Shown: one piece after another, positions 28,079-61,022 of the stretch | Layout of the letters: the number at the start of each line of letters is the position of its first letter | Numbering within the stretch: position 1 is the stretch's first letter | From: Lucinisca nassula | Taxonomy: Eukaryota > Mollusca > Bivalvia > Lucinida > Lucinidae | Assembly (NCBI GenBank): GCA_963580285.1 | Contig: OY757010.1 | Span: 224,211,234-224,275,233 of the forward strand | Direction of reading: 5' to 3' | DNA length: 64,000 nucleotides | Notes under the pieces: model-generated | What the model was told of the DNA's origin: nothing | The model's input: the letters and a program-made list of their open reading frames with translations, nothing else | Database searches by the model: none | Translations under genes and position numbers: made by a program

Positions 28079-29600
28079 AAGTAGAAGTAATACAAAGATC
28101 AGGGATCGATACAATTAACTTACTCCACCCATCAAAGACACCAAAGGGAAAGAAACACAAACATTAAGCGACCAGACCATAATGGAAACCTAAACAAAGG
28201 AAGGCCATAAGGACAGTTACTTTCCCACAAAATGGCCATATGGCCATCCAAAATAAAAAGACACAAGTGATACACACAATAATTAACAATCAACACCATA
28301 AATAAACCGCCACAGAAGAACTGCCTTGGAACGGTCAGTGGAATGATTTCCACTGGGGGGCTTAAATCGATTTTACGTGGCCACAATCCTCGCCCTTACT
28401 TCCGTCGCGATTTAGACAAATAATTTGTTCAGTCTGCATGAAGGCCTCCTAACTCATCAGTGCAACATCTCCGTGAACACAAAAAATCAAAGAACCACAG
28501 AGATGAGACAACGGTGAGGACTCGACAGCAAGAAACCACTGAAATGCTGGAGCAAAAGAAAACCAACAGTTAGACTCCGATGGGCCCGACCAGAGACAGA
28601 GCATTAGACACCTACCAACATTACCTTGAATTAGACCTCTCTAATTCTCAATAAGCATTTAAGTTGGAGCCGTCATAGAATCTGAGGCCTGACCCCCCGG
28701 CGTGCAATTAAAGAGGGAAGCAAAGTTGCCAACCGTGATTGGGTTAACTACCATGCATGCAGTCTGTCGTATAACATCCATGTTGTACCCAATCTTTTTA
28801 TATCGAAGAATGATTTTACGAAACTGGGCGCCGAAGCCACTGCGGTTATATATCCTTCCGAACTCACACACCATGCCACCACAAAATTCGGGCCCCGATA
28901 GACCTTGTTGCAGAAGAGATTTAAGTCCAATATTGAATTTTGAAATTAAATCAGAATGGCAATAAAATTTTGAAAAGGCTTTGCGTAGTTTAAGGTACCG
29001 ATAACCCTGATTAAGGAGTCCAGCCGCTAATAATTTATTACGAGTGTTGAAGTCAGTTACATGACTACACACCCCAGCAAATCGAATTAATTGCGAAATA
29101 TAAACGCCACAGGACGGCGCACGAGGAACATCATCATCCAAAAAAGGAAAATCCACAACCCCAAAACCAAAGCCACCGCGTTTATCACAAACCCCGCACG
29201 AAACAAACCCATCTACAATAGATAGATGTAAATCCAAAAACGGGGCCTCGGTATCAGAAGAATTTGCTCCACCCAACCGAAGCTCCGGGGGGCAAATCCG
29301 ACCGATCAAACCATCGAAATAGGTATTACAATATTTAATAAATCATCTAAATATCTAGAAGTGGAGATAAAAGCTTCAATAATTTCAGATTGGTTATCAA
29401 TGGAAAGCGACAACATGAAGTCTCTCTCATAACCATATAAGAACAGACCAGCCACAAGAGGTGCGCAATTCGTACCCATCGGAATACCCACAATCCGCCC
29501 AAACAACCCAGCACCGATTCTAACACAAACACTGCCAAGCAGAAAGGCGAGGGCATCACACACTTTCTGACACGACCAAAGTGTACAAAACCCATGCGCT
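28079..29600 (-). pseudogene. PLE-A, unit 4
   Basis: Truncated element with a 2-bp loss near 29328 directly after YLDDLLNI, splitting the frame into 85 and 216 codons. Confidence 0.9.
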
Positions 29601-31548: not shown

Positions 31549-32841
31549 CGAGTGTAGGCTGAAAAGTTCTGAGCCTGACCAAGATCCAATGGTTTGTCCA
31601 TGCTGAAAGTGCCTTATTTTTCAACATAGTCTTCCTTCCTGTCCACACACTTCCTCCAGCGATGCTGGAGTCCTTGGATCCCAGTGGTATAGAAGGTCTC
31701 ATCTTGGTCCCTGAAAAACTTCACAGCAGCTATCACCTCCTCGTCTGACCGACAATGCTGCCCAGCCAAGTGCTTTTTCATGTTTGGAAATAGGAATTAA
31801 TCTGATGCAGCTAGATCAGGTGAATACGGAGGGTGATCGACAAGTGTGAAGCCACAGTCATGCACAGCAGCCATTGCGACAACCGATTTATGAGCAGACG
31901 CATTGTCCTGATAGAACAAGACCCCTTTTGTCAATTTTCCGGGTCGTTTAGCCTTAATTGCTTTTCGCAATTCTTTTAGCAGATCTGCATAATACTCCCC
32001 ATTAATTGTTCTGCCCTTTTGAAGGTAATCTATGAATAGTATACCCTTGGCATCCCAGAACACTGATGCCATCACCTTCCCTGCAGAGGAGACGACCTTT
32101 GCCTTCTTTGGAGGGGTAGAGCCAGGGTGCTTCCATTGTATGGATTGTTGTTTGGTCTCTGGCTCAAAGTGATGAACCCAACACTCATCCTGAGTGGCAA
32201 AACGGTCAAGAAAACCATCTTGGTCTGCTTCAAAAATAGCCAAGTTGGCTTGTGACAGGTTCAGTCTGGTCAACGTTTGGTGAGGCGTCAAAAGCCGTGG
32301 CAGCCATCTGGCGGAAACCTTCGACATTCCTAATTCACTGCGTAGAATGTTCTCTACTCTTTCGCGGGAGATGCCAACGGTGTCAGCTAACTGATTCACA
32401 GTTAAACACCTGTCATCCATCACGGCCCTGTGCACTTGGCTGATGGTTTCCTCAGTTGTTGCCGTTGTGGGTCGTCCACCCCGAGCATCATATTCAAGGC
32501 TGTCCTTGCCCATCTTAAAATTTGCTGTCCACCTTTTCACGGTTGCATACGAAGGAGCATCTTCCCCTAATGTAGCAACCATATCGGCATGAAATATCCT
32601 TAGGAGCTAACCCCTTTTTATGGAGGTACTTGATGACACCACCATGCCAGATTTTGTCCATTTTCTCAAAAACATGCTAGTATCAATTTTCAAAGTCTAG
32701 AATTTCTACGTTTTTGCAGGTAAACTTGAACTCATTTCAGTCAAATCAAGTAATAAAGGTTTATATTTAATGAATACAAAATTTCATGGCTCTTTGATGA
32801 CTGCTTCTTGGTCAGGCTCAGAACTTGTCAGCCTACCCTCG
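31549..32841 (-). mobile_element. mariner-family DNA transposon, unit 4
   Basis: 1293 bp with TA flanks and inverted repeats as in the other units. No 5-bp duplication. Confidence 0.94.
31614..32661 (-). pseudogene. mariner transposase pseudogene, unit 4
   Basis: Open for 261 codons from MVATLGED to the third catalytic Asp, then the shared TAA. The first 25 codons (MDKIW onward) are in another frame because of one extra T. The WVPRLL signature reads WLPRLL here. Confidence 0.92.
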
Positions 32842-37323: not shown

Positions 37324-38842
37324 AAGTAGAAGTAATACAAAGATCAGGGATCGATACAATTAACTTACTCCACCCATCAAAGACACCAAAGGGAAAGAAA
37401 CACAAAAATTAAGCGACCAGACCATAATGGAAATCTAAACAAAGGAAGGCCATAAGGACAGTTACTTTCCCACAAAATGGCCATATGGCCATCCAAAATA
37501 AAAAGACACAAGTGATACACACAATAATTAACAATCAACACCATAAATAAACCGCCACAGAAGAACTGCCTTGGAACGGTCAGTGGAATGATTTCCACCT
37601 GGGGGCTTAAATCGATTTTACGTGGCCACAATCCTCGCCCTTACTTCCGTCGCGATTTAGACAAATAATTTGTTCAGTCTGCATGAAGGCCGCCTAACTC
37701 ATCAGTGCAACATCTCCGTGAACACAGAAAATCAAAGAACCACAGAGATGAGACAACGGTGAGGACTCGACAGCAAGAAACCACTGAAATGCTGGAGCAA
37801 AAGAAAACCAACAGTTAGACTCCGATGGGCCCGACCAGAGACAGAGCATCAGACACCTACCAACATTACCTTGAATTAGACCTCTCTAATTCTCAATAAG
37901 CATTTAAGTTGGAGCCGTCATAGAATCTGAGGCCTGACCCCCCGGCGTGCAATTAAAGAGGGAAGCAAAGTTGCCAACCGTGATTGGGTTAACTACCATG
38001 CATGCAGTCTGTCGTATAACATCCATGTTGTACCCAATCTTTTTATATCGAAGAATGATTTTACGAAACTGGGCGCCGAAGCCACTGCGGTTATATATCC
38101 TTCCAAACTCACACACCAAGCCACCACAAAATTCGGGCCCCGATAGACCTTGTTGCAGAAGAGATTTAAGTCCAATATTGAATATTGAAATTAAATCAGA
38201 ATGGCAATAAAATTTTGAAAAGGCTTTGCGTAGTTTAAGGTACCGATAACCCTGATTAAGGAGTCCAGCCGCTAATAATTTATTACGAGTGTTGAAGTCA
38301 GTTACATGACTACACACCCCAGCAAATCGAATTGCGAAATATAAACGCCACAGGACGGCGCACGAGGAACATTATCATCCAAAAAAGGAAAATCCACAAC
38401 CCCAAAACCAAAGCCACCGCGTTTATCACAAACCCCGCACGAAACAAACCCATCTACAATAGATAGATGTAAATCCAAAAACGGGGCCTCGGTATCAGAA
38501 GAATTTGCTCCACCCAACCGAAGCTCCGGGGGGCAAATCCGACCGATCAAACCATCGAAATAGGTATTATCAATATTTAATAAATCATCTAAATATCTAG
38601 AAGTGGAGATAAAAGCTTCAATAATTTCAGATTGGTTATCAATGGAAAGCGACAACATGAAGTCTCTCTCATAACCATATAAGAACAGACCAGCCACAAG
38701 AGGTGCGCAATTCGTACCCATCGGAATAACCACAATCCGCCCAAACAACCCAGCACCGATTCTAACACAAACACTGCCAAGCAGAAAGGCGAGGGCATCA
38801 CACACTTTCTGACACGACCAAAGTGTACAACTCCCATGCGCT
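37324..38842 (-). pseudogene. PLE-A, unit 5
   Basis: Truncated element with a 4-bp deletion near 38330 that breaks the frame. It lies 500 bp left of the intact Naiad-like insertion, in the same orientation, which allows a direct side-by-side comparison. Confidence 0.9.
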
Positions 38843-39340
38843 AATTTACACTATACATGTGACCGTAGTAATCAAGAAATAGGTTATAATTATCAAAACA
38901 ATATATCGAATGTGCTATACATTCAGAAAATGAAATGGTTGAAATAGCGTTAGGAATCCCCATCAAAGTGTTAATGTGTTCTATAAAATGGTTACCATTT
39001 CGAAGCAAAGAATATAATGAACAAGTTGTTTTATGTTCCCCTGAGTGTTTTGGACATTCCAGAGTGAAGGTGCTCCCGCCAATTGGGACTTGGCTGCGCT
39101 GAGCTGAAATTGACCACACTTCAGTACTGATAAACCGCTTAGAAGGACTAGGCCTGCCCAGGCAAAGTGGAGTGAGTCAGACCGCCCAATGCATATATGA
39201 CGTTTGGTTTCATTGGGCTGCAAGGCTTGCGATATCATTTCATCTCAATCTCGGATAGAAGTCCCTAAAATTTGAATCGATGTCTGCAAAATGACCTTAA
39301 TTGTGTTAACTGGTATGTGAAACCTCAGTTCGAACTAACA

Positions 39341-39759
39341 AAGTAGAAGTAAATCAAAGATCAGGAATTGATACAATTAACTTACTCCACCCATAAAAGA
39401 CACCAAAGGGAAAGAAATACAAACATTAAGCGACCAGACCATAATGGAAACCTTAACAAAGAAAGGCCATAAGGACAGTTACTTTCCCACAAAATGGCCA
39501 TATGGCCATCCAAAACCAAAAGACACAAGTGATACACACAGTAAGTAACAAACAACAACATAAATAAATCGCCACAGAAGAGCCGCCTTGGAACGGTCAG
39601 TGGAAGATTTCCACTGGGGGGCTTAAATCGATTTTACGTGGCCACAATCCTCGCCCTTACTTCCGTCGCGATTTAGACAAATAATTTGTTCAGTCCGCAT
39701 GAAGGCCTCCTAACTCATCAGTGCAACATCTCCGTGAACACAAAAATCAAAGAACCACA
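39341..39759 (-). repeat. Pseudo-LTR, downstream copy of Naiad-like element
   Basis: 419 bp repeated directly at 43486-43904. In element sense it lies 3' of the coding frame, so the 3' UTR and any SECIS would be at 39341-39906. It contains CTGATGAG (sense) about 200 bp from its right end and the inverted repeat CAGTGGAA/TTCCACTG. Confidence 0.93.
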
Positions 39760-39906
39760 GAGGTGAGACAACGGTGAGGACTCGACAGCAAGAAACCACT
39801 GAAATGCTGGAGCAAAAGAAAACCAACAGTTAGACTCCGATGAGCCCGACCAGAGACAGAGCATCAGGCACCAACCGACATTATCTCTCTAATTTTCAAT
39901 AAGCCT

Positions 39907-42900
39907 TTACGTTGGAGCCGTCATAGAATCTGAGGCCTGACCCACCGGCGTGCAATTAAAGAGGGAAGCAAAGTTGCCAACCGTGATTGGGTTAACTACC
40001 ATGCATGCAGTCTGTCGTATAATATCCATGTTGTACCCAATCTTTTTATATCGAAGAATGATTTTACGAAATTGGGTGCTGAAGTCATTGCGGTTATATA
40101 TTTTTCTGAATTTATATGCTAAGTCACCATAAAATTCGGGTTCCGATAGACCTTGTTGCAGAAGAGATTTAAGTCCAATATTGAATTTTGAAATTAAATC
40201 AGAATGGCGTCTATAAAATTTTGAAAAGGCTTTGCGTAGTTTATGGTACCGATAACCCTGATTAAGGAGTTTAGCCGTTAATAATTTATTACGAGTGTTG
40301 AAGTCAGTTACATGACTACACACTCTAGCAAATCGAATTAATTGCGAAATATAAACGCCATAGGATGGCGCACGAGGAACATCACCATCCAAAAAAGGAA
40401 AATTTACAATCTCAAAATCAAAGTCATCGCGTTTATCATAAATTTTGCACGAAACAAATCCATCTACAATAGACAGATGTAAATCCAAAAACGGGGCCTC
40501 GGTATCAGAAGAATTTGCTTTATTTAACTGAAGTTCTAGGGGGTAAATCTGACTGATCAAACCATCAAAATAGGTATTATCAATATTTAATAAATCATCT
40601 AAATATCTAGAAGTAGAGCTAAAAGCTTCAATAATTTCAGATTGGTTATCAATGGAAAGCGACAAAATGAAGTCTCTTTCATAACAATACAAGAACAGAT
40701 CAGCCACAAGAGGTGCGCAATTAGTACCCATCGGAATACCCACAATTTGTCTAAATAACTTAGTACCGAATCTAATATAAATATTGTCAAGTAGAAAGGT
40801 GAGGGCATCACACACTTTCTGACATGACCAAAGTGTATAATTCTTATGCTCTTTAGAAGTGAAAAATGCATTTCTGACATTACATGCAAGATAGAGAGAA
40901 TCTTCTCTGTGAAAAGTCCATTCAATTAAATCATTAAGCTTTTCTTTTATAAGATTATGAGGAAGTGTAGTGTAAAGAGTGGAAAAATCGTAGGTAGACA
41001 GACTAGAAGCACGAAAATGTCTAGATTTCAATTTATTTAAAACCTCATTCGAATTTTTTATAGACCAAAACAGATTTCTTCCTGATCTTTCAAAGACTTT
41101 ATCACAATATTTAATTACATGCGTTTTAATAGCAGTAAGACAGGAAGTTAATAATTTAGAAAGTTCAGTGGTAGTGCAAGAGCTAGAATTTGCAATAAAC
41201 CGTGCTTTGTAAGGTTTTTTATGAAGTTTTGGTAACCAGTATAGCGTAGGAAGCTTGTCTTGGCCTTCGTTAACACACACAGCAAACTTGGTGGCTGAAA
41301 GACAAACATGTTTATCTACTATAGCTCTCTCTTCAGCTAAAGGCTGATGTTCATAGGCCATAGTACCACAAAGCTCCTGCTTAAGCGTGTTAACATAGTG
41401 GAGCCGTCACACAACGACGACGTTGTTAGCGGCCTTGTCTGCAGGGGCCAAAACAAACTTCTTATGAAATTCTTGAATACCTAGTTTAAGATGACGTAAA
41501 GACGTCTTGGGCTTAGGAGGTAATAAGTTAGTATTTTGAGAATAGAAAGAAATGCGTTTATTTAGTAGTTTTAAAATGCTAAGTTTCCAGTCCTTAAGGG
41601 CTTTATGCTCAACATACTCTCGCTTACACCATCGATTACCGAATTCATTCAAGGAAGCAGCGATTTCATCTCTACATTTACTGAAATCAATTTTAGAAGG
41701 AAACCGATATTTCGGTCCTTTAGAAATTATATTCCTTATCCTAGAATCAGGAATAATTTTCAAATTGCCAGTAACTACATGACCAGCAGCAGGATAGCAA
41801 TACTTTGAGTTTTTACAATCACATGAATCAGGAGTATTAGTATCAATATCAAGATCTGAAACAAGTTTATTGAAATTAAAAATGATAGATCTAACAGGTT
41901 TGTTATATTTATAGCAAATTATAGGTGTTTCAGTATTTTGAAAATAAGCAGGAATGGAAGAAAGCACCGATCTCTCACGGAAGATACTGGGCAAATCTAT
42001 AAAATCCATACCCTTATTAATGAAGGATATTTTGAAGAAATGGCGTTTATGATTAATTTCAGAATCAATGTAAGGACGGAGAGTATGCTGAGTATAGCCT
42101 CTAGTTAAGAGAGCCGCATCATATAACTGATGAGAACTATCGTAGAATTTATTCGCCTCGGTGTCCAGAAGACGTAAAACAGAAACGGGTAATGAACTTA
42201 AAAATGAAAGCATAGAGTGGCGTCCATGATTTAATAATATAATTGACAGTCACTTCAGTCTAGTATTGTTTCGTTTAAACGCACGTGTTTTACGTTTAAA
42301 GTTACCATTTTTCCTGGTGCCGTGAGATCTAGTTCTGCGTTTTCGACATTCCAGGAGTGAGAAAATATCAAAGTCCGGCATTCTGGAAATATTACCCTCA
42401 TGATAAATGTTGTCATTAAATCCCAGTGGAAAAGGGGTCTGTAAAAATTTAATCCATTTCAGTTCAGCTTCATGTCTTTTGATTATTTTGAATCTAGATG
42501 TAGAATTTGCATCGTAATAAAGTTTTTCCACTGGTTGTATAACAATGTTATTTACAGAATGACCTGTACGTCGAAAGTGACGGTACAAGAAAGTGTCAGT
42601 TTTCTTAGGCTTACTCATTCTACGATAATGCTCGTTCAATCTAGTTTTAAGCATGCGGTTAGTTTGACCGACGTACTGCATATTACAGTTTGTAGCACGT
42701 CAAGTAATTAGATAAATTAAATCTGTAGACTGTCATGTCAAATCAGACATGTTAACTACAGAGAAGCGTCTACCGTTTACAGATGAAGTAACGGTAGACG
42801 CAGTGCTTAAATGCGAACAACATCTGCACCTCTTGGCATTGCACTTAGAAATACTGGGATACATTCCACTTCTTTTCCACGGATTAGTATATTTTCGAAG

Positions 42901-43251
42901 GATGGGCGATTTGAGAGGAGATAGTCTTATACGAAGACTATTCCCAAAAACATTGGTATTGCCTGCTCCTTTGAGATTAACTGAAGTTACAGAAGACACA
43001 TTTAAGGGTCTAACCAATACCGAAGGCAACATAGTATTAAAGTTCTTAATAGAATGGGGAATCCGTACAGAAGAAGCAGAGTGTAACCTAAGGGGTGATA
43101 TTGATATTTTAAATGTATTTGTAATACTCATTTTGGTTTGTAAGGTTGTGATACCGTCAATACTAAAGCGATGTTCATACCGGTTATTAAATAAATACTG
43201 AAGAAGATTCCTTCGAATAGAAGGAAGGTACAACAAAAGCCCACAAAACAT
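39907..43251 (-). CDS. Naiad-like EN-RT polyprotein with four in-frame TGA (probable selenoprotein)
   Basis: One frame of 1115 codons from ATG at 43251 to TAA at 39907. A TAG two codons upstream of the ATG supports the start. In-frame TGAs lie at codons 173, 184, 334 and 615; there is no TAA, TAG or frameshift inside. Order: Cys-rich segment with CNAKRCRCC (137-145); GIY-YIG endonuclease around LIYLIT-TGA-RATNCNMQYVGQT with His in NEHYRRM and RHFRRTGH; CxC motif SCDCKNS (477-479); reverse transcriptase with YDFSTLYTTL (motif A), GIPMGTNCAPLVADL (motif B) and catalytic YLDD (883-886); C-terminus MTAPT. TGA 184 sits where PLE endonucleases have the first Cys of their CCHH motif; TGA 615 follows NNVVVV. 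Reading TGA as selenocysteine fits reports of clam Naiads. The alternative is nonsense decay. I could not locate a SECIS element by eye. Confidence 0.85.
41407..41409 (-). other. In-frame TGA 4, candidate selenocysteine codon
   Basis: Codon 615, between ADKAANNVVVV and RLHYVNTLKQEL at the start of the reverse-transcriptase region. The following frame is the RT frame. Confidence 0.66.
42250..42252 (-). other. In-frame TGA 3, candidate selenocysteine codon
   Basis: Codon 334, after the basic stretch FKRNNTRLK that ends the endonuclease region. The frame continues LSIILLNHGRH without shift. Confidence 0.62.
42700..42702 (-). other. In-frame TGA 2, candidate selenocysteine codon
   Basis: Codon 184, after YLIT and before RATNC. 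This is the position of the first Cys of the PLE endonuclease CCHH motif, as I recall the family. Confidence 0.68.
42733..42735 (-). other. In-frame TGA 1, candidate selenocysteine codon
   Basis: Codon 173, after NMSDLT and before QSTDLIYLI. It is 11 codons from the next TGA, at the entrance to the GIY-YIG domain. Confidence 0.65.
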
Positions 43252-43485
43252 CCTAGTCTACTTAAAGTACAGGGATGTCAAACAAGCAGTTGTTATACAA
43301 CGAGGAACGAACATCGGTTTAATAATGACCTTCAACAGGTATCTAAAGGATGTCAATTGATGGAACAGTGAAAAGCAATTGTATAAGCAATCCCTGAGGA
43401 TTGGAAAAATAAGAGCATTAAATGCATGTACGGGGAGACCTTTTACAGCCGCCACACGGCACAAACAAAACAGCCCTGATATGCA

Positions 43486-43904
43486 AAGTAGAAGTAAAAC
43501 AAAGATCAGGAATTGATACAATTAACTTACTCCACCCATAAAAGACACCAAAGGGAAAGAAATACAAACATTAAGCGACCAGACCATAATGGAAACCTTA
43601 ACAAAGAAAGGCCATAAGGACAGTTACTTTCCCACAAAATGGCCATATGGCCATCCAAAACCAAAAGACACAAGTGATACACACAGTAAGTAACAAACAA
43701 CAACATAAATAAATCGCCACAGAAGAGCCGCCTTGGAACGGTCAGTGGAAGATTTCCACTGGGGGGCTTAAATCGATTTTACGTGGCCACAATCCTCGCC
43801 CTTACTTCCGTCGCGATTTAGACAAATAATTTGTTCAGTCCGCATGAAGGCCTCCTAACTCATCAGTGCAACATCTCCGTGAACACAAAAATCAAAGAAC
43901 CACA
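43486..43904 (-). repeat. Pseudo-LTR, upstream copy of Naiad-like element
   Basis: Direct copy of 39341-39759 with one difference noticed (AAAAC versus AAATC near its left end). It lies upstream of the start codon in element sense and would carry the promoter if the element is transcribed from its own end. Confidence 0.93.
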
Positions 43905-45069
43905 AGGGAATATTCCCTGTATCTTGCGTTGAATGTATGAAATGCTTTTTTTTAGTTCTGAAGAACAAAATAATAATCAGTATCGTCGTGTTAGACTCAC
44001 CTTTCTCATTGACAATATTTCTATAAGATTTGATTTCAAGTTATATAGACAAGTTTATGGAATTCGGATGGGTACGATCTGCGCACGTCTTCTTGTTTTG
44101 CTATAAAAGGGACTTCATGGTGTCTATTTCTGTTGAAAAGCAATCTGGAGTTATTGAAGCTTTTAGCTCGAATCTAGATGTTCGAATGATTTAATAAAAA
44201 CATGTAATTAGTTTCATGAAAATGGGTAAGAGTTTTGAAGCCATAAATAATTATTCCCGGATATGTGTATATTTATGGTAAGAGACATGACTTTGAAATG
44301 CTAAGGGAAGTATTTGAGGTTTAAAGGTCAGGACAGGCGAAACATTACCAGTGTGTACATAACGTTACAAAATTGGCGTTAGGTTATATGCGGAAGTAAG
44401 GAAAGCAACGCTTGGTATTTTCCATGGTGTCTATTTCTGTTGAAAAACAATCTGAATTTGCTGAAGCTTTCAGCTTGAATATAGATATTCCAATGATTTA
44501 ATAAGTCATTAATTTCCTGAAAATGGGTGAGCATTTTGAAACCATAAATAATTGTTCCCGGACAAGGGTATATTTGTAGTAACAGCCATGAATTTGAAAT
44601 GCTGACGGACGTATTTGAAGTTTAAAGGTCTGGACAAGAAAATAGTACCAATGTATACATGACAATAATAATTTGGTGTTACGTCATAGGCGAAATTCAG
44701 GAACGCAACGCTTGGTACCATAAGATCGAACGGTAACACCATTTAATCGTAGGTCGCGTCATTTTAAAACAGCAAAAATAAATTCCGAAATTCTTAAACT
44801 CATAATCGGATTTTATTATGCCGTGACATTTCCGAATTCGGGAAAATCTTCAGAAAATGGTCGTTCATATCTGTTCAAATTAATCATGTTTCTTCATTGA
44901 TACTGGTGAATGACATATTGAAAAATATACAAATAATTAGAGATTGTAAATGGACTCGTACTGACTGAAAGACACTGTTTAGACGCCAATTATTATTTGT
45001 CTTACTAGGAAGCACCTATTAGTCATTTTAGTATAAACAAAACATGTTTTCGTTTCTTTTGAAAAATAG

Positions 45070-45186
45070 AAAATCAATGTGATCCCAATCCATGCGAGAA
45101 TGGAGGGACTTGTACTCCCAAGGGGAATCGTTTCGAATGTGACTGTCCACCTGGATGGAAAGGGAGAAGATGTCAGCAACCTATAA
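45070..45186 (+). CDS. EGF-like module exon, unit 5
   Basis: 117 bp with the same splice sites and module as units 1-4. In this unit the upstream intron is about 4.6 kb longer because of the Naiad-like insertion. Confidence 0.88.
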
Positions 45187-45347
45187 GTAAGCTATAAATA
45201 ATTTAATAGATATGTGTTTTGAATTATGTTTATGTTTTATAATTATAAAAAACGCCCGTTGCATAATTAATAAGTACGCCGTATTTAGCATGCATGTACG
45301 TCTTTGCACGTATGTATTGCTAATATGTTTTTGAGAGCAGTTTAGTA

Positions 45348-46639
45348 CGAGTGTAGGCTGAAAAGTTCTGAGCCTGACCAAGATCCAATGGTTTGTCCAT
45401 GCTGAAAGTGCCTTATTTTTCAACATAGTCTTCCTTCCTGTCCACACACTTCCTCCAGCGATGCTGGAGTCCTTGGATCCCAGTGGTATAGAAGGTCTCA
45501 TCTTGGTCCCTGAAAAACTTCACAGCAGCTATCACCTCCTCGTCTGACCGACAATGCTGCCCAGCCAAGTGCTTTTTCATGTTTGGAAATAGGAATTAAT
45601 CTGATGCAGCTAGATCAGGTGAATACGGAGGGTGATCGACAAGTGTGAAGCCACAGTCATGCACAGCAGCCATTGCGACAACCGATTTATGAGCAGACGC
45701 ATTGTCCTGATAGAACAAGACCCCTTTTGTCAATTTTCCGGGTCGTTTAGCCTTAATTGCTTTTCGCAATTGTTTTAGCAGATCTGCATAATACTCCCCA
45801 TTAATTGTTCTGCCCTTTTGAAGGTAATCTATGAATAGTATACCCTTGGCATCCCAGAACACTGATGCCATCACCTTCCCTGCAGAGGAGACGACCTTTG
45901 CCTTCTTTGGAGGGGTAGAGCCAGGGTGCTTCCATTGTATGGATTGTTGTTTGGTCTCTGGCTCAAAGTGATGAACCCAACACTCATCCTGAGTGGCAAA
46001 ACGGTCAAGAAAACCATCTTGGTCTGCTTCAAAAATAGCCAAGTTGGCTTGTGACAGGTTCAGTCTGGTCAACGTTTGGTGAGGCGTCAAAAGCCGTGGC
46101 ACCCATCTGGCGGAAACCTTCGACATTCCTAATTCACTGCGTAGAATGTTCTCTACTCTTTCGCGGGAGATGCCAACGGTGTCAGCTAACTGATTCACAG
46201 TTAAACACCTGTCATCCATCACGGCCCTGTGCACTTGGCTGATGGTTTCCTCAGTTGTTGCCGTTGTGGGTCGTCCACCCCGAGCATCATATTCAAGGCT
46301 GTCCTTGCCCATCTTAAAATTTGCTGTCCACCTTTTCACGGTTGCATACGAAGGAGCATCTTCCCCTAATGTAGCAACCATATCGGCATGAAATATCCTT
46401 AGGAGCTAACCCCTTTTTATGGAGGTACTTGATGACACCACCATGCCAGATTTTGTCCATTTTCTCAAAAACATGCTAGTATCAATTTTCAAAGTCTAGA
46501 ATTTCTACGTTATTGCAGGTAAACTTGAACTCATTTCAGTCAAATCAAGTAATAAAGGTTTATATTTAATGAATACAAAATTTCATGGCTTTTGATGACT
46601 GCTTCTTGGTCAGGCTCAGAACTTGTCAGCCTACCCTCG
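45348..46639 (-). mobile_element. mariner-family DNA transposon, unit 5
   Basis: 1292 bp with one base missing in the 5' untranslated end (GGCTTTTGA). TA flanks and inverted repeats are intact. Confidence 0.94.
45413..46460 (-). pseudogene. mariner transposase pseudogene, unit 5
   Basis: 261 open codons from MVATLGED to the third catalytic Asp with WVPRLL intact, then the shared TAA. It has the same uncompensated extra T near the N-terminus as units 3 and 4. Confidence 0.92.
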
Positions 46640-47024
46640 TAGGAAAGTAATTGTCATTTTGGCTTTCCGCTTGTAACGTAGTACATTGTAATTTTATGTT
46701 TGTGTTTCTTTCCATTTGCGGTTCATTTTTGTTATGGTTTGTCTTTGGGTGTTTGTGTCGCTTATTCTGTTTTGGTTTGGATGGCTTATTGTCTATTTTG
46801 CGGGAAAGTGGCTGTCTTTTTGGCTTTCCGCTGTTGGTGTTTCCGTTGTGGTCTATTGTTCGTGTTTGTGGTTCTTTCCCTTTGGTGTCTCTGATGGGAG
46901 CTGTGGGTGAATTGTATCGATTCCTGATCATTGCCTCCACCTCTATTTTGGGTGGGAGGTTTGAGGTAATTGCATCAGTTTCTGAACGTTGCCTTCTCTT
47001 CCATTTTATATATTCGCATACATA

Positions 47025-51121: not shown

Positions 51122-52647
51122 AAGTAGAAGTAATACAAAGATCAGGGATCGATACAATTAACTTACTCCACCCATCAAAGACACCAAAGGGAAAGAAACA
51201 CAAACATTAAGCGACCAGACCATAATGGAAACCTAAACAAAGGAAGGCCATAAGGACAGTTACTTTCCCACAAAATGGCCATATGGCCATCCAAAATAAA
51301 AAGACACAAGTGATACACACAATAATTAACAATCAACACCATAAATAAACCGCCACAGAAGAACTGCCTTGGAACGGTCAGTGGAATGATTTCCAGGGGG
51401 GGGGGGCTTAAATCGATTTTACGTGGCCACAATCCTCGCCCTTACTTCCGTCGCGATTTAGACAAATAATTTGTTCAGTCTGCATGAAGGCCTCCTAACT
51501 CATCAGTGCAACATCTCCGTGAACACAAAAAATCAAAGAACCACAGAGATGAGACAACGGTGAGGACTCGACAGCAAGAAACCACTGAAATGCTGGAGCA
51601 AAAGAAAACCAACAGTTAGACTCCGATGGGCCCGACCAGAGACAGAGCATCAGACACCTACCAACATTACCTTGAATTAGACCTCTCTAATTCTCAATAA
51701 GCATTTAAGTTGGAGCCGTCATAGAATCTGAGGCCTGACCCACCGGCGTGCAATTAAAGAGGGAAGCAAAGTTGCCAACCGTGATTGGGTTAACTACCAT
51801 GCATGCAGTCTGTCGTATAACATCCATGTTGTACCCAATCTTTTTATATCGAAGAATGATTTTACGAAACTGGGCGCCGAAGCCATTGCGGTTATATATC
51901 CTTCCGAACTCACACACCATGCCACCACAAAATTCGGGCCCCGATAGACCTTGTTGCAGAAGAGATTTAAGTCCAATATTGAATTTTGAAATTAAATCAG
52001 AATGGCAATAAAATTTTGAAAAGGCTTTGCGTAGTTTAAGATACCGATAACCCTGATTAAGGAGTCCAGCCGCTAATAATTTATTACAAGTGTTGAAGTC
52101 AGTTACATGACTACACACCCCAGCAAATCGAATTAATTGCGAAATATAAACGCCACAGGACGGCGCACGAGGAACATCATCATCCAAAAAAGGAAAATCC
52201 ACAACCCCAAAACCAAAGCCACCGCGTTTATCACAAACCCCGCACGAAACAAACCCATCTACAATAGATAGATGTAAATCCAAAAACGGGGCCTCGGTAT
52301 CAGAAGAATTTGCTCCACCCAACCGAAGCTCCGGGGGGCAAATCCGACCGATCAAACCATCGAAATAGGTATTATCAATATTTAATAAATCATCTAAATA
52401 TCTAGAAGTGGAGATAAAAGCTTCAATAATTTCAGATTGGTTATCAATGGAAAGCGACAACATGAAGTCTCTCTCATAACCATATAAGAACAGACCAGCC
52501 ACAAGGGGTGCGCAATTCGTACCCATCGGAATACCCACAATCCGCCCAAACAACCCAGCACCGATTCTAACACAAACACTGCCAAGCAGAAAGGCGAGGG
52601 CATCACACACTTTCTGACACGACCAAAGTGTACAACTCCCATGCGCT
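51122..52647 (-). pseudogene. PLE-A, unit 6 (301-codon frame open)
   Basis: Frame open for 301 codons (51705-52610). The G run in the pseudo-LTR near 51398 has grown to nine or more G. The C-terminal end reads CTPVGQ, as in the intact element, instead of CTPGGQ as in units 1-5. Confidence 0.9.
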
Positions 52648-54316
52648 AATTTACACTATACATGTGACCGTAGTAATCAAGAAATAGGTTATAATTATCA
52701 AAACAATATATCGAATGTGCTATACATTCAGAAAATGAAATGGTTGAAATAGCGTTAGGAACCCCCATCAAAGTTTTAATGTGTTCTATAAAATGGTTAC
52801 CGTTTCGAAGCAAAGAATATAATGAACAAGTTGTTTTATGTTCCCCTGAGTGTCTTGGACATTCCAGAGAGAAGGTGCTCCCGCCAATTTGGACTTGGCT
52901 GCACTGAGCTGAAATTGACCACACTTCAGTTCTGATAAACCGCTTAGAAGGACTAGGCCTGCCCAGGCAAAGTGGAGTGAGTCAGACCGCCCAATGCATA
53001 TATGACGTTTGGTTTCATTGGGCTGCAAGGCTGCGATATCATTTCATCTCAATCTCGGATAGAAGTCCCTAAAATTTGAATCGATGTCTGCAAAATGACC
53101 TAAATTGTGTTAACTGGTATGTGAAACCTCAATTCGAACTAACAAGCCACAAGGGAATATTCCCTGTATCTTGCGTTGAATGTATGAAATGTTTTTTTTT
53201 TTAGTTCTGAAGAACAAAATAATAATCAGTATCGTCGTGTTAGACTCACCTTTCTCATTGACAATATTTCTATAAATTGATTTCTAGTTATATAGACAAG
53301 TTTATGGAATTCGGATGGGTACGATCTGCGCACGTCTTCTTGTTTTGCTATAAAAGGGACTTCATGGTGTCTATTTCTGTTGAAAAGCAATCTGGAGTTA
53401 TTGAAGCTTTTAGCTCGAATCTAGATGTTCGAATGATTTAATAAAAACATGTAATTAGTTTCATGAAAATGGGTAAGAGTTTTGAAGCCATAAATAATTA
53501 TTCCCGGATATGTGTATATTTATGGTAAGAGACATGACTTTGAAATGTTAAGGGAAGTATTTGAGGTTTAAAGGTCAGAACAGGCGAAACATTACCAGTG
53601 TGTACATAACGTTACAAAATTGGCGTTAGGTTATATGCGGAAGTATGGAAAGCAACGCTTGGTATTTTCCATGGTGTCTATTTCTGTTGAAAAACAATCT
53701 GAATTTGTTGAAGCTTTCAGCTTGAATATAGATGTTCCAATGATTTAATAAGTCATTAATTTCCTGAAAATGGGTGAGCATTTTGAAACCATAAATAATT
53801 GTTCCCGGATAAGGGTATATTTGTAGTAACAGCCATGAATTTGAAATGCTGACGGACGTATTTGAAGTTTAAAGGTCTGGACAAGAAAATAGTACCAATG
53901 TTTACATGACAATAATAATTTGGTGTTACGTCATAGGCGAAATTCAGGAACTCAACGCTTGGTACCATAAGATCGAACGGTAACACCATTTAATCGTAGG
54001 TCGCGTCATTTTATAACAGCAAAAATAAATTCCGAAATTCTTAAACTCATAATCGGATTTTATTATGTCATGACATTTCCGAATTCGGGAAAACCTTCAG
54101 AAAATGGTCGTTCATATATATTCAAATTAATCATGTTTCTTCATTGATACTGGTGAATGACATATTGAAAAATATACAAGTAATTAGAGATTGTAAATAG
54201 ACTCGTACTGACTGAAAGACACTGTTTAGACGCCAATTATTATTTGTCTTACTAGGAAGCACCTATTAGTCATTTTAGTATAAACAAAACATGTTTTCGT
54301 TTCTTTTGAAAAATAG

Positions 54317-54433
54317 AAAATCAATGTGATCCCAATCCATGCGAGAATGGAGGGACTTGTACTCCCAAGAGGAATCGTTTCGAATGTGACTGTCTACCTG
54401 GATGGAAAGGGAGAAGATGTCGGCAACCTGAAA
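54317..54433 (+). CDS. EGF-like module exon, unit 6 (variant 2)
   Basis: Same exon frame and splice sites (TAG acceptor, AA|GTAAGC donor), but four codons differ from units 1-5: GGG to AGG (Gly to Arg in the C3-C4 loop), CCA to CTA (Pro to Leu after C5), CAG to CGG (Gln to Arg after C6) and ATA to GAA (Ile to Glu at the exon end). All six cysteines and the CENGGTC O-fucose motif are kept. I see no synonymous change. Confidence 0.87.
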
Positions 54434-54567
54434 GTAAGCTATAAATAATTTAATAGATATGTGTTTTTTATTATGTTTATGTTTTATAATTATAAAAAAC
54501 GCCCGTTGCATAATTAATAAGTACGCCGTATTGAGCATGCATGTACGTCTTTGCACGTATGTATTTC

Positions 54568-54759
54568 GATTTTGTCCATTTTCTCAAAAACGTGCTAGTA
54601 TCAATTTTCAAAGTCTAGAATTTCTACGTTATTGCAGGTAAACTTGAACTCATTTGAGTCAAATCAAGTAATAAAGGTTTATATTTAATGAATACAAAAT
54701 TCCATGGCTCTTTGATGACTGCCTCTTGTTCAGGCTCAGAACTTGTCAGCCTACCCTCG
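54568..54759 (-). mobile_element. mariner remnant, unit 6
   Basis: Only the transposase 5' end side and its terminal repeat remain, about 190 bp. The join (GTATTTCGATTTTGTCC) fuses intron sequence left of the element to codons near MDKIW, so the left terminus plus about 30 bp of flank is gone. Confidence 0.9.
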
Positions 54760-55144
54760 TAGGAAAGTAATTGTCATTTTGGCTTTCCGCTTGTAACGTA
54801 GTACATTGTAATTTTATGTTCGTGCTTCTTTCCATTTGCGGTTCATTTTTGTTATGGTTTGTCTTTGGGTGTTTGTGTCGCTTATTCTGTTTTGGTTTGG
54901 ATGGCTTATTGTCTATTTTGCGGGAAAGTGGCTGTCTTTTTGGCTTTTCGCTGTTGGTGTTTCCGTTGTGGTCTATTGTTCGTGTTTGTGGTTCTTTCCC
55001 TTTGGTGTCTCTGATGGGAGCTGTGGGAGAATTGTATCGATTCCTGATCATTGCGTCCACCTCTATTTTTGGTGGGAGGTTTGAGGTAATTGCATCAGTT
55101 TCTGAACGTTGCCTTCTCTTCCATTTTATATATTCGCATACATA

Positions 55145-56672
55145 CAGACCAGCTACCGGTAATAACCCATCTTTTTTGTTTCGCGCAGAAACCGCCTAAC
55201 GCGAAAACGGCTATTTTCTCCGCAAATCAGCGAGAAAAGATAAAATGAGCGAGAAATTTCTCGCTGAAATTTCTCCCAGTTTCGCGGAGAAAATTCTCGG
55301 AGATTCGCGGCGAAAATTTGACCGATTGCTTTCATTGAAAATGAAATTACCAGCGTTTCGCGGAGGAAAAATACAACTGAGCTTGCGTGAAATTTTTGGC
55401 TCATTATTATTTCTTGGCTTGTTTGGTGTTGTTTTTGTAAACGAAGGCAAATTGAAGTCATTGTTAAATCATAATCAAATATTCTTTCATGTTGCTAAAA
55501 ATTCCTTTTAGTAATTTATTTTTTAAAACTCTCATGACAAATTTTATTCACATCACGAAAATACGCCTATTTATTTGTTACCCGCTTAAACCCTACTTTT
55601 AACTGGGGTTTACAGGGGTATACATTATTTATCTAATTTCTGCTTGCATAGATTGTGGGTATTCGTTAGAACCGCCTCGTCGAGTCGTTTTAAAGTGTAC
55701 CCAAAATCTTGAGCAGAAATATGAAAAAAATGCCAGAACTCTTATCCGAAAATTTTCCATTTTTAGTGGTAAAATTTTACAATATATTTGAATAGGCGAG
55801 TTCTCATAATGAGCCGTACATGTAGGTTATTTACACCATAATGACATCAGACATTTACCAAAAACGCAGCTTGATGAAATAGATGGGCTGCATGATGCTT
55901 CCACGCAGAGCTGAAAGCGACCCGCATGCACGTACTGGTAAACCGCTTACATGATCTAAGCCAGCCCAGGCAAAGTGGTGCGAGTCGGACCGTCAATGCA
56001 TATAAATCCTGTTGGTTTCATGGGGTGGCAGGGCTTGAGATGTCATTTCATCTCAATGTCGGGTAAAAGTCCCACAAAATTGGAAGCGACGTCTCCAAAA
56101 TGACCTTTACACTGTTGACGTGGACGTAAAACCTCAAACAAACAAAACCAAAAGCCCAGATTCGCCTTGTTTATTTATGATTACAAACTGTCAAATTGGT
56201 ACAGCAAGCGGTGTTTTCAATGCAAAGTTAGTGACCAGTTAAGGAGGAACACATGAATTCCACCGCAGGCTAGGTCTATGTCGCGAACGAACAGACGAAA
56301 AACCAGACACCTATATCGGGCCATGCTTCATGCAGGCACGTGATAAAGGACATGCTACTTTGCATTCGCACGCATTATTTGCGCTAACAAGTCTACTTCC
56401 CCGACCCCTCACCCACCCCTAACTAATAAATACTTCCAGTTGGAGCAAACATGTGGAGCATCAACATGTTAATAAAGCTCATGTAATGAACGAGTCACTA
56501 CTCACCATTTTACATGCACACATACATGTATAGAGAGAACTGGAGTTAACAATGTATACATTTCCTTAATCTGTTCCTAGACGTCCAAAGTAGGGTGTGG
56601 GTACATGCACTCGTTACCAACTACATGTATGTGGCCCGAGCTAGGCGCAAACCACAGCGGAGAGACCTAATA
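55145..56672. mobile_element. CAGACC-TIR element, unit 6 (right half deleted)
   Basis: Left end and about 1.5 kb remain. The junction deletion removed the MITEs, the right end and the following tRNA-derived SINE. The left end reads CAGACCAGC, matching the right end of the full copies exactly. Confidence 0.7.
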
Positions 56673-57784
56673 ACCACAGAGGTGAGACAACGGTGAGGAC
56701 TCGACAGCAAGAAACCACTGAAATGCTGGAGCAAAAGAAAACCAACAGTTAGACTCCGATGGGCCCGACCAGAGACAGAGCATCAGACACCAACCAACAT
56801 TACCTTGAATTAGACCCCTCTAATTCTCAATAAGCCTTTACGTTGGAGCCGTCATAGAATCTGAGGCCTGACCCACCGGCGTGCAATTAAAGAGGGAAGC
56901 AAAGTTGCCAACCGTGATTGGGTTAACTACCATGCATGCAGTCTGTCGTATAACATCCATGTTGTACCCAATCTTTTTATATCGAAGAATGATTTTACGA
57001 AACTGGACGCCGAAGCCACTGCGGTTATATATCCTTCCGAACTCACACACCAAGCCACCACAAAATTCGGGCCCCGATAGACCTTGTTGCAGAAGAGATT
57101 TAAGTCCAATATTGAATTTTGAAATTAAATCAGAATGGCGTCAATAAAATTTTGAAAAGGCTTTGCGTAGTTTAAGGTACCGATAACCCTGATTAAGGAG
57201 TCCAGCCGCTAATAATTTATTACGAGTGTTGACGTCAGTTACATGACTACACACCCCAGCAAATCGAATAAATTGCGAAATATAAACGCCACAGGACGGC
57301 GCACGAGGAACATCACCATCCAAAAAAAGGAAAACCCACAACCCCAAAACCAAAGCCACCGCGTTTATCACAAACCCCGCACGAAACAAACCCATCTACA
57401 ATAGATAGATGTAAATCCAAAAACGGGGCCTCGGTATCAGAAGAATTTGCTCCACCCAACCGAAGCTCCGGGGGGCAAATCCGACCGATCAAACCATCGA
57501 AATAGGTATTATCAATATTTAATAAATCATCTAAATATCTAGAAGTGGAGATAAAAGCTTCAATGATTTCAGATTGGTTATCAATGGAAAGCGACAACAT
57601 GAAGTCTCTCTCATAACCATACAAGAACAGACCAGCCACAAGGGGTGCGTAATTCGTACCCATCGGAATACCCACAATCCGCCCAAACAACCCAGCACCG
57701 ATTCTAACACAAACACTGCCAAGCAGAAAGGCGAGGGCAATACACACTTTCTGACACGACCAAAGTGTACAACTCCCATGCGCT
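56672..57784 (-). pseudogene. PLE-A, unit 7 (pseudo-LTR mostly lost)
   Basis: The left part of the pseudo-LTR is removed by the unit-junction deletion. It retains three bases (GGCGTC) near 57138 that units 1-6 lack and the intact element has, so this copy is closer to the ancestral state there, but the codon reads TGA. An extra A near 57327 breaks the frame. Confidence 0.88.
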
Positions 57785-58678
57785 AATTTACACTATACAT
57801 GTGACCGTAGTAATCAAACAAATAGGTTATAATTATCAAAACAATATATCGAATGTGCTATACATTCAGAAAATGAAATGGTTGAAATAGCGTTAGGAAT
57901 CCCCATCAAAGTGTTAATGTGTTCTATAAAATGGTTACCGTTTCGAAGCAAAGAATATAATGAACAAGTTGTTTTATGTTCCCCTGAGTGTCTTGGACAT
58001 TCCAGAGAGAAGGTGCTCCCGCCAATTAGGACTTGGCTGCGCTGAGCTGAAATTGACCACACTTCAGTACTGATAAACCGCTTAGAAGGACTAGGCCTGT
58101 CCAGGCAAAGTGGAGTGAGTCAGACCGCCCAGTGCATATATGACGTTTGGTTTCATTGGGCTGCAAGGCTGCGATATCATTTCATCTCAATCTCGGATAG
58201 AAGTCCCTAAAATTTGAATCGATGTCTGCAAAATGACCTAAATTGTGTTAACTGGTATGTGAAACCTCAGTTCGAACTAACAAGCCACAAGGGAATATTC
58301 CCTGTATCTTGCGTTGAATGTATGAAATGTTTTTTTTTTTAGTTCTGAAGAACAAAATAATAATCAGTATCGTCGTTTTAGACTCACCTTTCTCATTGAC
58401 AATATTTCTATAAATTGATTTCTAGTTATATAGACAAGTTTATGGAATTCGGATGGGTACGATCTGCGCACGTCTTCTTGTTTTGCTATAAAAGGGACTT
58501 CATGGTGTCTATTTCCTATTAAAATATACAAGTAATTAGAGATTGTAAATAGACTCGTACTGACTGAAAGACACTGTTTAGACGCCAATTATTATTTGTC
58601 TTACTAGGAAGCACCTATTAGTCATTTTAGTATAAACAAAACATGTTTTCGTTTCTTTTGAAAAATAGAAAATCAATG

Positions 58679-58795
58679 TGATCCCAATCCATGCGAGAAT
58701 GGAGGGACTTGTACTCCCAAGAGGAATCGTTTCGAATGTGACTGTCTACCTGGATGGAAAGGGAGAAGATGTCGGCAACCTGAAAGTAAGCTATA
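58679..58795 (+). CDS. EGF-like module exon, unit 7 (variant 2)
   Basis: Same variant as unit 6, with identical exon sequence by eye. It sits in a short unit where about 780 bp of the upstream intron is missing, yet the T-rich tract and acceptor survive. Confidence 0.87.
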
Positions 58796-58919
58796 AATAA
58801 TTTAATAGATATGTGTTTTTTATTATCTTTATGTTTTATAATTATAAAAAACGCCCGTTGCATAATTAATAAGTACGCCGTATTGAGCATGCATGTACGT
58901 CTTTGCACGTATGTATTGC

Positions 58920-59111
58920 GATTTTGTCCATTTTCTCAAAAACGTGCTAGTTTCAATTTTCAAAGTCTAGAATTTCTACGTTATTGCAGGTAAACTTGAA
59001 CTCATTTGAGTCAAATCAAGTAATAAAGGTTTATATTTAATGAATACAAAATTTCATGGCTCTTTGATGACTGCTTCTTGGTCAGGCTCAGAACTTGTCA
59101 GCCTACCCTCG
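58920..59111 (-). mobile_element. mariner remnant, unit 7
   Basis: Same deletion join as unit 6 (GTATTGCGATTTTGTCC, one base different), so it was inherited by amplification. Confidence 0.9.
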
Positions 59112-59496
59112 TAGGAAAGTAATTGTCATTTTGGCTTTCCGCTTGTAACGTAGTACATTGTAATTTTATGTTCGTGCTTCTTTCCATTTGCGGTTCATTT
59201 TTGTTATGGTTTGTCTTTGGGTGTTTGTCTCGCTTATTCTGTTTTGGTTTGGATGGCTTATTGTCTATTTTGCGGGAAAGTGGCTGTCTTTTTGGCTTTC
59301 CGCTGTTGGTGTTTCCGTTTTGGTCTATTGTTCGTGTTTGTGGTTCTTTCCCTTTGGTGTCTCTGATGGGAGCTGTGGGTGAATTGTATCGATTCCTGAT
59401 CATTGCGTCCACCTCTATTTTTGGTGGGAGGTTTGAGGTAATTGCATCAGTTTCTGAACGTTGCCTTCTCTTCCATTTTATATATTCGCATACATA

Positions 59497-61022
59497 CAGA
59501 CCAGCTACCGGTAATAACCCATCTTTTTTGTTTCGCGCAGAAACCGCCTTACGCGAAAACGGCTATTTTCTCCGCAAATCAGCGAGAAAAGATAAAATGA
59601 GCGAGAAATTTCTCGCTGAATTTTCTCCTAGTTCGCGGAGAAAATTCTCGGAGATTCGCGGCGAAAATTTGACCGATTGCTTTCATTGAAAATGAAATTA
59701 CCAGCGTTTCGCGGAGGAAAAATACAACTGAGCTTGCGTGAAATTTTTGGCTCATTATTATTTCTTGGCTTGTTTGGTGTTGTTTTTGTAAACGAAGGCA
59801 AATTGAAGTCATTGTTAAATCATAATCAAATATTCTTTCATGTTACTAAAAATTCCTTTTAGTAATTTATTTTTTAAAACTCTCATGACAAATTTTATTC
59901 ACATCACGAAAATACGCCTATTTATTTGTTACCCGCTTAAACCCTACTTTTAACTGGGGTTTACAGGGGTATACATTATTTATCTAATTTCTGCTTGCAT
60001 AGATTGTGGGTATTCGTTAGAACCGCCTCGTCGAGTCGTTTTAAAGTGTACCCAAAATCTTGAGCAGAAATATGAAAAAAATGCCAGAACTCTTATCCGA
60101 AAATTTTCCATTTTTAGTGGTAAAATTTTACAATATATTTGAATAGGCGAGTTCTCATAATGAGCCGTACATGTAGGTTATTTACACCATAATGATATGT
60201 GAAATTTACCAAAAACGCAGCTTGATGAAATAGATGGGCTGCATGATGCTTCCACGCAGAGCTGAAAGCGACCCGCATACACGTACTGGTAAACCGCTTA
60301 CATGATCTAAGCCAGCCCAGGCAAAGTGGTGCGAGTCGGACCGTCAATGCATATAAATCCTGTTGGTTTCATGGGATGGCAGGGCTTGAGATGTCATTTC
60401 ATCTCAATGTCGGGTAAATGTCCCACAAAATTGGAAGCGACGTCTCCAAAATGACCTTTACACTGTTGACGTGGACGTAAAACCTCAAACAAACAAAACC
60501 AAAAGCCCAGATTCGCCTTGTTTATTTATGATTACAAACTGTCAAATTGGTACAGCAAGCGGTGTTTTCAATGCAAAGTTAGTGACCAGTTAAGGAGGAA
60601 CACATGAATTCCACCGCAGGCTAGGTCTATGTCGCGAACGAACAGACGAAAAACCAGACACCTATATCGGGCCATGCTTCATGCAGGCACGTGATAAAGG
60701 ACATGCTACTTTGCATTCGCACGCATTATTTGCGCTAACAAGTCTACTTCCCCGACCCCTCACCCACCCCTAACTAATAAATACTTCCAGTTGGAGCAAA
60801 CATGTGGTGTATCAACATGTTAATAAAGCTCATGTAATGAACGAGTCACTACTCACCATTTTACATGCACACATACATGTATAGAGAGAACTGGAGTTAA
60901 CAATGTATACATTTCCTTAATCTGTTCCTAGACGTCCAAAGTAGGGTGTGGGTACATGCACTCGTTACCAACTACATGTATGTGGCCCGAGCTAGGCGCA
61001 AACCACAGCGGAGAGACCTAAT
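59497..61022. mobile_element. CAGACC-TIR element, unit 7 (right half deleted)
   Basis: Same truncated form and same junction as unit 6. The subterminal palindrome has acquired changes on its right side (GCTGAATTTTCTCC). Confidence 0.7.

Follow-up and report, generated by a model that had tools for sequence, protein, structure and literature searches.

The window analyzed here, 64,000 nucleotides of contig OY757010.1 from the bivalve Lucinisca nassula, is over its whole length (1–64000) a tandem array with a unit of about 9.25 kb, the units being roughly 97–99.6% alike and shorter ones lying near 54169–62866. One unit is broken at 43900–39341 by a full-length Penelope-like element of the endonuclease-first (Naiad) type, whose single long reading frame has UGA in frame at codons 173, 184, 334 and 615 and ends within a match to the model of the selenocysteine insertion sequence (SECIS). 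Based on this arrangement, we consider it very probable that at least UGA codons 173, 184 and 615 are read as selenocysteine (Sec). The empty target (...CTAACAAGCCACAAGG...) is intact at seven other unit places (blastn with printed flanks), so that the element was most simply inserted after the array had formed; no target duplication is visible at the insertion flanks, where one base is apparently lost and five 5'-side bases are ambiguous. Its pseudo-long terminal repeats (pseudo-LTRs) are direct repeats of about 420 bases with 99.76% identity, which, together with the empty sites in other units, bears out a preliminary description of this DNA that had called the copy young.

The same description had proposed a permuted element with an N-terminal GIY-YIG endonuclease and a CxC linker, and both features were recovered. 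The N-terminal part aligns to the GIY-YIG domain, and the C-terminal part to the reverse transcriptase (RT), of two distant loci (L002 and L003), which score 28.2 and 29.5 bits with Pfam GIY-YIG (cut-off 22.6; E 2.4e-6 and 9e-7) and 21.4 and 20.8 bits with Pfam RVT_1, below the cut-off of 29.6 (E 2.2e-4 and 3.4e-4). The protein carries C477-D-C479, GIPMG at 838 and YLDD at 883, with C479 kept in 13 of 13 aligned relatives' records. When an AlphaFold2 model built from 63 alignment rows (mean predicted local distance difference test score 67.9) was compared with the PDB using Foldseek, all ten matches with E < 0.001 were telomerases (top E 9e-6), at low global template-modeling (TM) scores by query of 0.21–0.25; the I-TevI catalytic domain was matched with a TMt of 0.72 but an E of 0.15. 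A profile search of solved structures returned a single match, to prefoldin (E 0.15), and no hammerhead ribozyme was found within the window, where a search with all Rfam families gave zero matches at gathering score. An N-terminal GIY-YIG domain, a CxC linker, an RT resembling telomerase reverse transcriptase (TERT) and pseudo-LTRs together form what we take to be the Naiad architecture.

L002 and L003 belong to three distant loci obtained from a second scan of genome contigs; relatives were absent from viral-contig scans and from the first genome-contig scan. In the third locus, L001:1-2637 (WVYN01000087.1), one uninterrupted frame holds a Naiad-like RT and, after it, a ubiquitin-protease domain (Pfam UCH, E 5.6e-27). 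Closer relatives came from three protein searches, which listed 9 of 9, the best 120 of 295 and the best 120 of 2,861 matches, giving 247 distinct records. Three of these (P0100, P0155 and P0160) are named as proteins of Thiodiazotropha metagenome-assembled genomes, yet they are pieces of the same retroelement family; Thiodiazotropha are symbionts of lucinid clams, which agrees with a bivalve host without proving it, and the pieces are probably host DNA in symbiont assemblies.

The frame lies on the minus strand and comprises 1,114 codons and a terminal TAA, with no TAA or TAG inside and TGA as its only internal stop, in agreement with the preliminary description; the plus strand of 39907–43251 is not open and contains many stops. 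Had the stops arisen in these codons by random single-base nonsense mutation, four of four would be TGA with a probability of 0.007–0.008 (calculated with transition weights of 1, 2 and 4), slightly rarer than the roughly 1 in 80 given before, and relatives align along the whole 3.3 kb with zero frameshifts. Residue 1 of 12 listed relatives aligns at column 41, and translation may therefore start at the ATG at 43131 (codon 41), in which case the first Met assumed earlier would be too early.

Among the listed records, the BLAST columns corresponding to the TGA codons hold 24 Trp and 4 Cys (173), 22 Trp and 6 Cys (184), and 20 Cys, 6 Trp and 1 Asp (615), and column 477 in the CxC linker holds 10 Trp and 3 Cys; Trp occurs in at least one of these four columns in 34 records. 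Boundaries of records fall at the same places: 40 end exactly at 476 and 2 at 614, and 21 begin at 617. We infer that gene calling for most Trp records used a TGA = Trp code, whereas the standard code made others stop or start at these very places. In the outgroups L002 and L003 the frames are intact and free of TGA and, as read from the printed frames, carry Cys at 173, 184, 477 and 615, and L001, which covers only 615 among these columns, likewise has Cys there. Neither L002 nor L003 yields a SECIS match up to E 10. Because Cys is found at 173, 184 and 615 in these outgroups, the three are, on comparative grounds, Cys/TGA columns; codon 184 falls, as first described, on the leading Cys of the endonuclease CCHH motif. 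Many relatives probably use TGA at 477, and since the present copy has Cys where these show an apparent TGA, Sec and Cys seem to have been swapped within the family.

The earlier proposal of a protein with four Sec residues is supported for codons 173, 184 and 615, with their Cys in the outgroups, but not for codon 334, where a result that the same description had named as refuting is seen, namely related records with residues other than Cys: 72 of 98 listed records have Asp, the others Cys (6), Asn (6), Val (5), Glu (5), Tyr (2), Gly (1) and Leu (1), with three further gaps. A reading with a considerable chance, if below even, is that three UGAs encode Sec whereas UGA 334 is a private nonsense change, which would make the copy itself a dead member of a selenoprotein family. 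The dominance of Asp speaks for it, as does a tree of 60 rows with column 334 masked, in which the nearest records are mainly Asp; yet P0022, the seventh nearest, is one of the six records with Cys, TGA is one step from Cys codons and not from Asp codons, and the frame is otherwise intact in a young-looking copy. The midpoint root puts the window element beside all 57 close relatives, and column 334 is not polarised. Codon 334 is doubtful: either Cys gave way to Sec in this lineage, or the stop is a nonsense mutation private to this copy.

For a SECIS element, the preliminary description had pointed to the minus strand near 39341–39906, and Rfam SECIS_1 (RF00031) does match the coding strand at the frame end with 26.5 bits, at full model length and with all core letters. 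The match has an E of 0.072 in a search of 38500–45500 on both strands with 4,227 Rfam families and E up to 10, where it is the better of two matches; this corresponds to about 2e-5 for one family in 7 kb (0.072 / 4,227), and the E over the whole 64 kb is 0.66. Its layout is AUGA, GGC-U-CCAAC paired with GUUGG-U-GCC, an apical AAA and then UGAU, and the core helix appears in both the minimum-energy and the centroid folds of 100 nt, while forcing the SECIS stem in an 88-nt stretch costs 0.7 kcal/mol. The frame ends ...GATTCT ATG ACG GCT CCA ACG TAA AGG, so that AUGA is coding and the stop codon supplies the apical AA. With its 5' part coding and the stop codon inside, the match is not confined to the 3' untranslated region (UTR), where a eukaryotic SECIS is expected. 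A home-made pattern scan demanding pairing straight after AUGA was discarded, having found zero candidates in the window, missed the Rfam match and returned 1–6 per 64 kb in each of ten shuffles.

If the SECIS constraint is real, ATG-A is expected at the ends of the relatives' proteins. Older copies in the array have altered stem or core letters in the alignment, and conservation was therefore assessed on protein tails only. Among 102 listed records that reach column 1080, 77 have residues at both 1110 and 1111 in the BLAST columns, and in 73 of these Met precedes a residue encoded only by codons that start with A; when aligned with MAFFT, 75 of 82 records have Met at column 1110. The four exceptions read VM, MV, IR and VV, and three of them (P0173, P0182 and P0222) combine A-to-G-type changes at 1110/1111 with membership in the A-to-G-loaded set described below. 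P0144, P0154 and P0156 end at column 1108, just ahead of the AUGA core and not within the SECIS, as if the position of the stop could shift relative to the signal.

The array further contains eight older Naiad copies, one per unit, none of which covers the TGA region. Their majority sequence differs from the young copy at 114 positions, 76 of them A-to-G, and in the coding part A-to-G accounts for 71 of 88 differences. These changes lie in saturated patches (71 of 271 A changed, in 47 runs vs 106 expected, z −9.3). As many as 74 A-to-G changes are common to all old copies covering them, compared with only 4 among the 49 changes that vary between old copies; outside the element, singletons among five units number only 20 on the plus strand, five of them A-to-G and one T-to-C, which reads as A-to-G on the strand of the element. 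At 43 of 45 codons with a non-synonymous A-to-G change, relatives side with the young residue, and the older copy is therefore the changed one.

Similar loads are found beyond the window. We classified a record as A-to-G-loaded if its A-to-G-type amino-acid changes numbered 12 or more and were no fewer than five times the reverse ones. Compared with the nearest record, and by amino-acid type only, 14 of 242 listed protein records meet this definition (P0230, P0218, P0222, P0194, P0193, P0195, P0116, P0190, P0231, P0079, P0173, P0182, P0087 and P0176), vs none of 242 with the mirror bias and none with an excess of T-to-C or C-to-T. Loaded pairs sharing more than 150 columns overlap at over half of their positions only in P0173/P0182 and P0182/P0231, so that most loads look like separate events. 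The window element itself is free of such a load, with 22 A-to-G vs 18 G-to-A types against the family majority. Two loaded records, P0087 and P0116, carry Trp at 477, as does P0049, which is loaded against the family majority (30 vs 2); in these three, 477 may be a true TGG.

The clustered A-to-G changes are likely scars of RNA editing by an ADAR-type enzyme, to judge from the base changes. A different origin, for instance in error-prone reverse transcription or in a bias of record selection towards long frames (ascertainment), is unlikely but deserves weight. The avoidance of a 5' G typical of such editing is not seen (13 of 71 edited A vs 54 of 270 of all A), and ascertainment is possible because A-to-G removes stops, gene callers favouring copies whose TGA, TAA or TAG lost an A, and the loads among relatives were scored on protein records. 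Against this stand the saturated patches in the coding part, the changes held in common by the old copies and scarce among the differences between them, and the complete lack of mirror cases among the relatives. Guidance of the editing by an inverted Naiad fragment beside the insertion site was also considered and dropped, as the patches reach beyond that fragment.

Two further explanations concern the UGA codons themselves. That they are read as another residue, through leaky readthrough or a code with UGA = Trp, is highly improbable: some relatives' records do have Trp at these columns, but L002 and L003 have Cys and not Trp at all four, and the SECIS match at the frame end of the window element has no counterpart found in these two loci. 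An ordinary decayed pseudogene with four stops that are TGA by chance is scarcely credible, for although genomic retroelement copies are mostly dead and several older array copies are fragmented across different frames (tblastn), such decay is at odds with the all-TGA probability of about 0.007, 3.3 kb free of frameshifts, three TGAs on Cys columns, a SECIS match at the frame end and the near-identical pseudo-LTRs.

Several observations nevertheless weigh against the selenoprotein reading, beginning with the Asp-dominated column 334. The SECIS score of 26.5 bits is below the Rfam gathering cut-off of 35, the folding stability of the 100 nt is no better than that of shuffled sequences (z 0.94; 162 of 200 shuffles at least as stable), and none of the eight older array copies yields a SECIS match at E values up to 10. 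In the tail comparison, the remaining 25 of 102 records end earlier or diverge, three of them ending at 1108, just before AUGA. At 615, Cys is the residue in 20 of the 27 records that have one, three of the 20 being distant, and Sec is accordingly not universal at this column. TGA in the close relatives is deduced from protein records, which do not say under which code their genes were called. Within the 64-kb window no other Naiad copy covers the four TGA codons, and the window protein alone matches zero Pfam families.

Table 1 Positions of the Naiad-type element, its coding features and the older copies within the window.
Feature	Position	Strand	Basis or remark
Full-length Naiad-type Penelope-like element, recent insertion	39342..43899	−	Empty sites in other array units; 5'-side boundary uncertain by ~5 bases
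5' pseudo-LTR	43485..43904	−	99.76% identity over 420 bases to 39339–39759
3' pseudo-LTR	39339..39759	−	Pairs with 43485–43904
Single frame with four TGA and terminal TAA	39907..43251	−	Frame reading
TGA codon 173, Cys column ahead of GIY motif	42733..42735	−	Relatives W24/C4; Cys in L002, L003
TGA codon 184, first Cys of endonuclease CCHH motif	42700..42702	−	Relatives W22/C6; Cys in L002, L003
TGA codon 334 in the linker; either Sec or a nonsense mutation private to this copy	42250..42252	−	Relatives mostly Asp
CxC linker motif, codons 477–479 (TGT-GAT-TGT)	41815..41823	−	Cys at 477 in this copy
TGA codon 615, ahead of RT core	41407..41409	−	Relatives C20 W6 D1; Cys in L001–L003
RT catalytic motif YLDD, codons 883–886	40594..40605	−	Translation
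SECIS match overlapping the stop codon	39855..39934	−	RF00031; AUGA 39924–39921, TAA stop 39909–39907 = apical AA, UGAU on 3' side
Older 5'-truncated Naiad copy with clustered A-to-G	37324..38842	−	Comparison with young copy
Seven further older copies	403–1926, 9659–11182, 18911–20433, 28079–29588, 51122–52647, 56669–57784, 61020–62135		Alignment

The surroundings of the element hold further repeats. An older Naiad fragment, about 71% similar and in the opposite direction, adjoins the insertion site at 43905–44198 (plus) and occupies the same place in other units, and 46718–46933 (plus), also present in other units, is about 73% similar to part of the pseudo-LTR and is perhaps a solo old pseudo-LTR. 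The array unit additionally includes a mariner-type transposase at 31797–32582 (minus; Pfam Transposase_1, E 3.8e-27). At about 45075–45190 (plus), a coding-like stretch resembles an EGF-like domain by eye and may belong to a host gene that is itself repeated, as one of its exons.

Taking the selenoprotein reading forward, protein families suggest that the host SECIS-binding protein and selenocysteine elongation factor would bind the frame-end hairpin and insert Sec at the UGAs, and that the N-terminal GIY-YIG domain of the full-length protein would nick DNA, at which the telomerase-like RT would copy the element RNA. The AUGA core would be translated as part of the C-terminal tail ...S-M-T/M-x-P-T, with the UAA stop as the apical AA. 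Since the SECIS straddles the stop, a finishing ribosome would open the signal each round, and termination and Sec insertion would be expected to compete on one hairpin. The base changes further suggest that an ADAR-type adenosine deaminase attacks family transcripts, converting patches of sense-strand A to G, and that the edited RNAs are then reverse-transcribed and fixed in the genome. Combining these strands, we tentatively propose, with the balance still somewhat against the whole, a selenium-dependent family that carries its recoding signal on its own stop codon and whose RNAs may be hyperedited by host ADAR as a defence, turning Sec UGA into UGG and erasing AUGA, before being reverse-transcribed and kept in genomes as legible traces of that defence.

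If Sec is needed at several sites, the spread of the element would be tied to the selenium supply of its host, and the columns at which Cys and Sec replace each other offer a natural set of exchanges for studying what keeps Sec in place. Because the SECIS has bases in common with the stop codon, one can test directly how termination competes with recoding. Should the A-to-G patches be ADAR scars, RNA editing against retroelements would have left datable records in genomes, and restriction could therefore be studied without catching live transcripts.

Selenoprotein Naiads of clams and spiders are reportedly already described, Craig et al. (Mol Biol Evol, 2021) being said to have presented Naiad Penelope-like elements that include multi-Sec ones from both groups. 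The stop-codon SECIS and the editing scars may be new. In the open-licence literature (titles and abstract starts, with most subscription journals outside), we found no report of edited Penelope-like copies, nor of a stop-codon SECIS or the 334/477 pattern, which is weak evidence of novelty. The window element resembles Naiad in its N-terminal GIY-YIG domain, CxC linker, TERT-like RT, pseudo-LTRs, several in-frame TGAs and lack of a hammerhead match; its Cys at 477, its TGA at 334 and its SECIS across the stop codon may set it apart. PMC10941475 names Naiad only in a table.

Among other systems, a viral precedent for the signal is the GPX4 selenoprotein of fowlpox virus, whose SECIS is said to lie within the reading frame (PMC6769590). 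Both have a eukaryotic-type SECIS in coding sequence and not in the 3' UTR; unlike GPX4, the window element places its stop codon on the apical AA, is a retroelement and has several UGAs. Clusters of mismatches in sequence reads serve as a mark of editing (PMC2873906), and A-to-G hyperediting attributed to ADAR is mentioned for the avian retroviruses RAV-1 and avian leucosis virus (PMC8586724). The Naiad case shares with these viruses sense-strand A-to-G hyperediting of a reverse-transcribing element, whereas here the changes are fixed in an animal genome, concern a Penelope-like element and are recorded in several relatives, with the deaminase putative. In oysters and abalone, herpesvirus RNAs are hyperedited by ADAR1 (PMC6651903), also a case of molluscan ADAR activity on an invading nucleic acid; in those animals it was viral RNA in RNA-seq, whereas the putative editing in the window concerns genomic retroelement copies.

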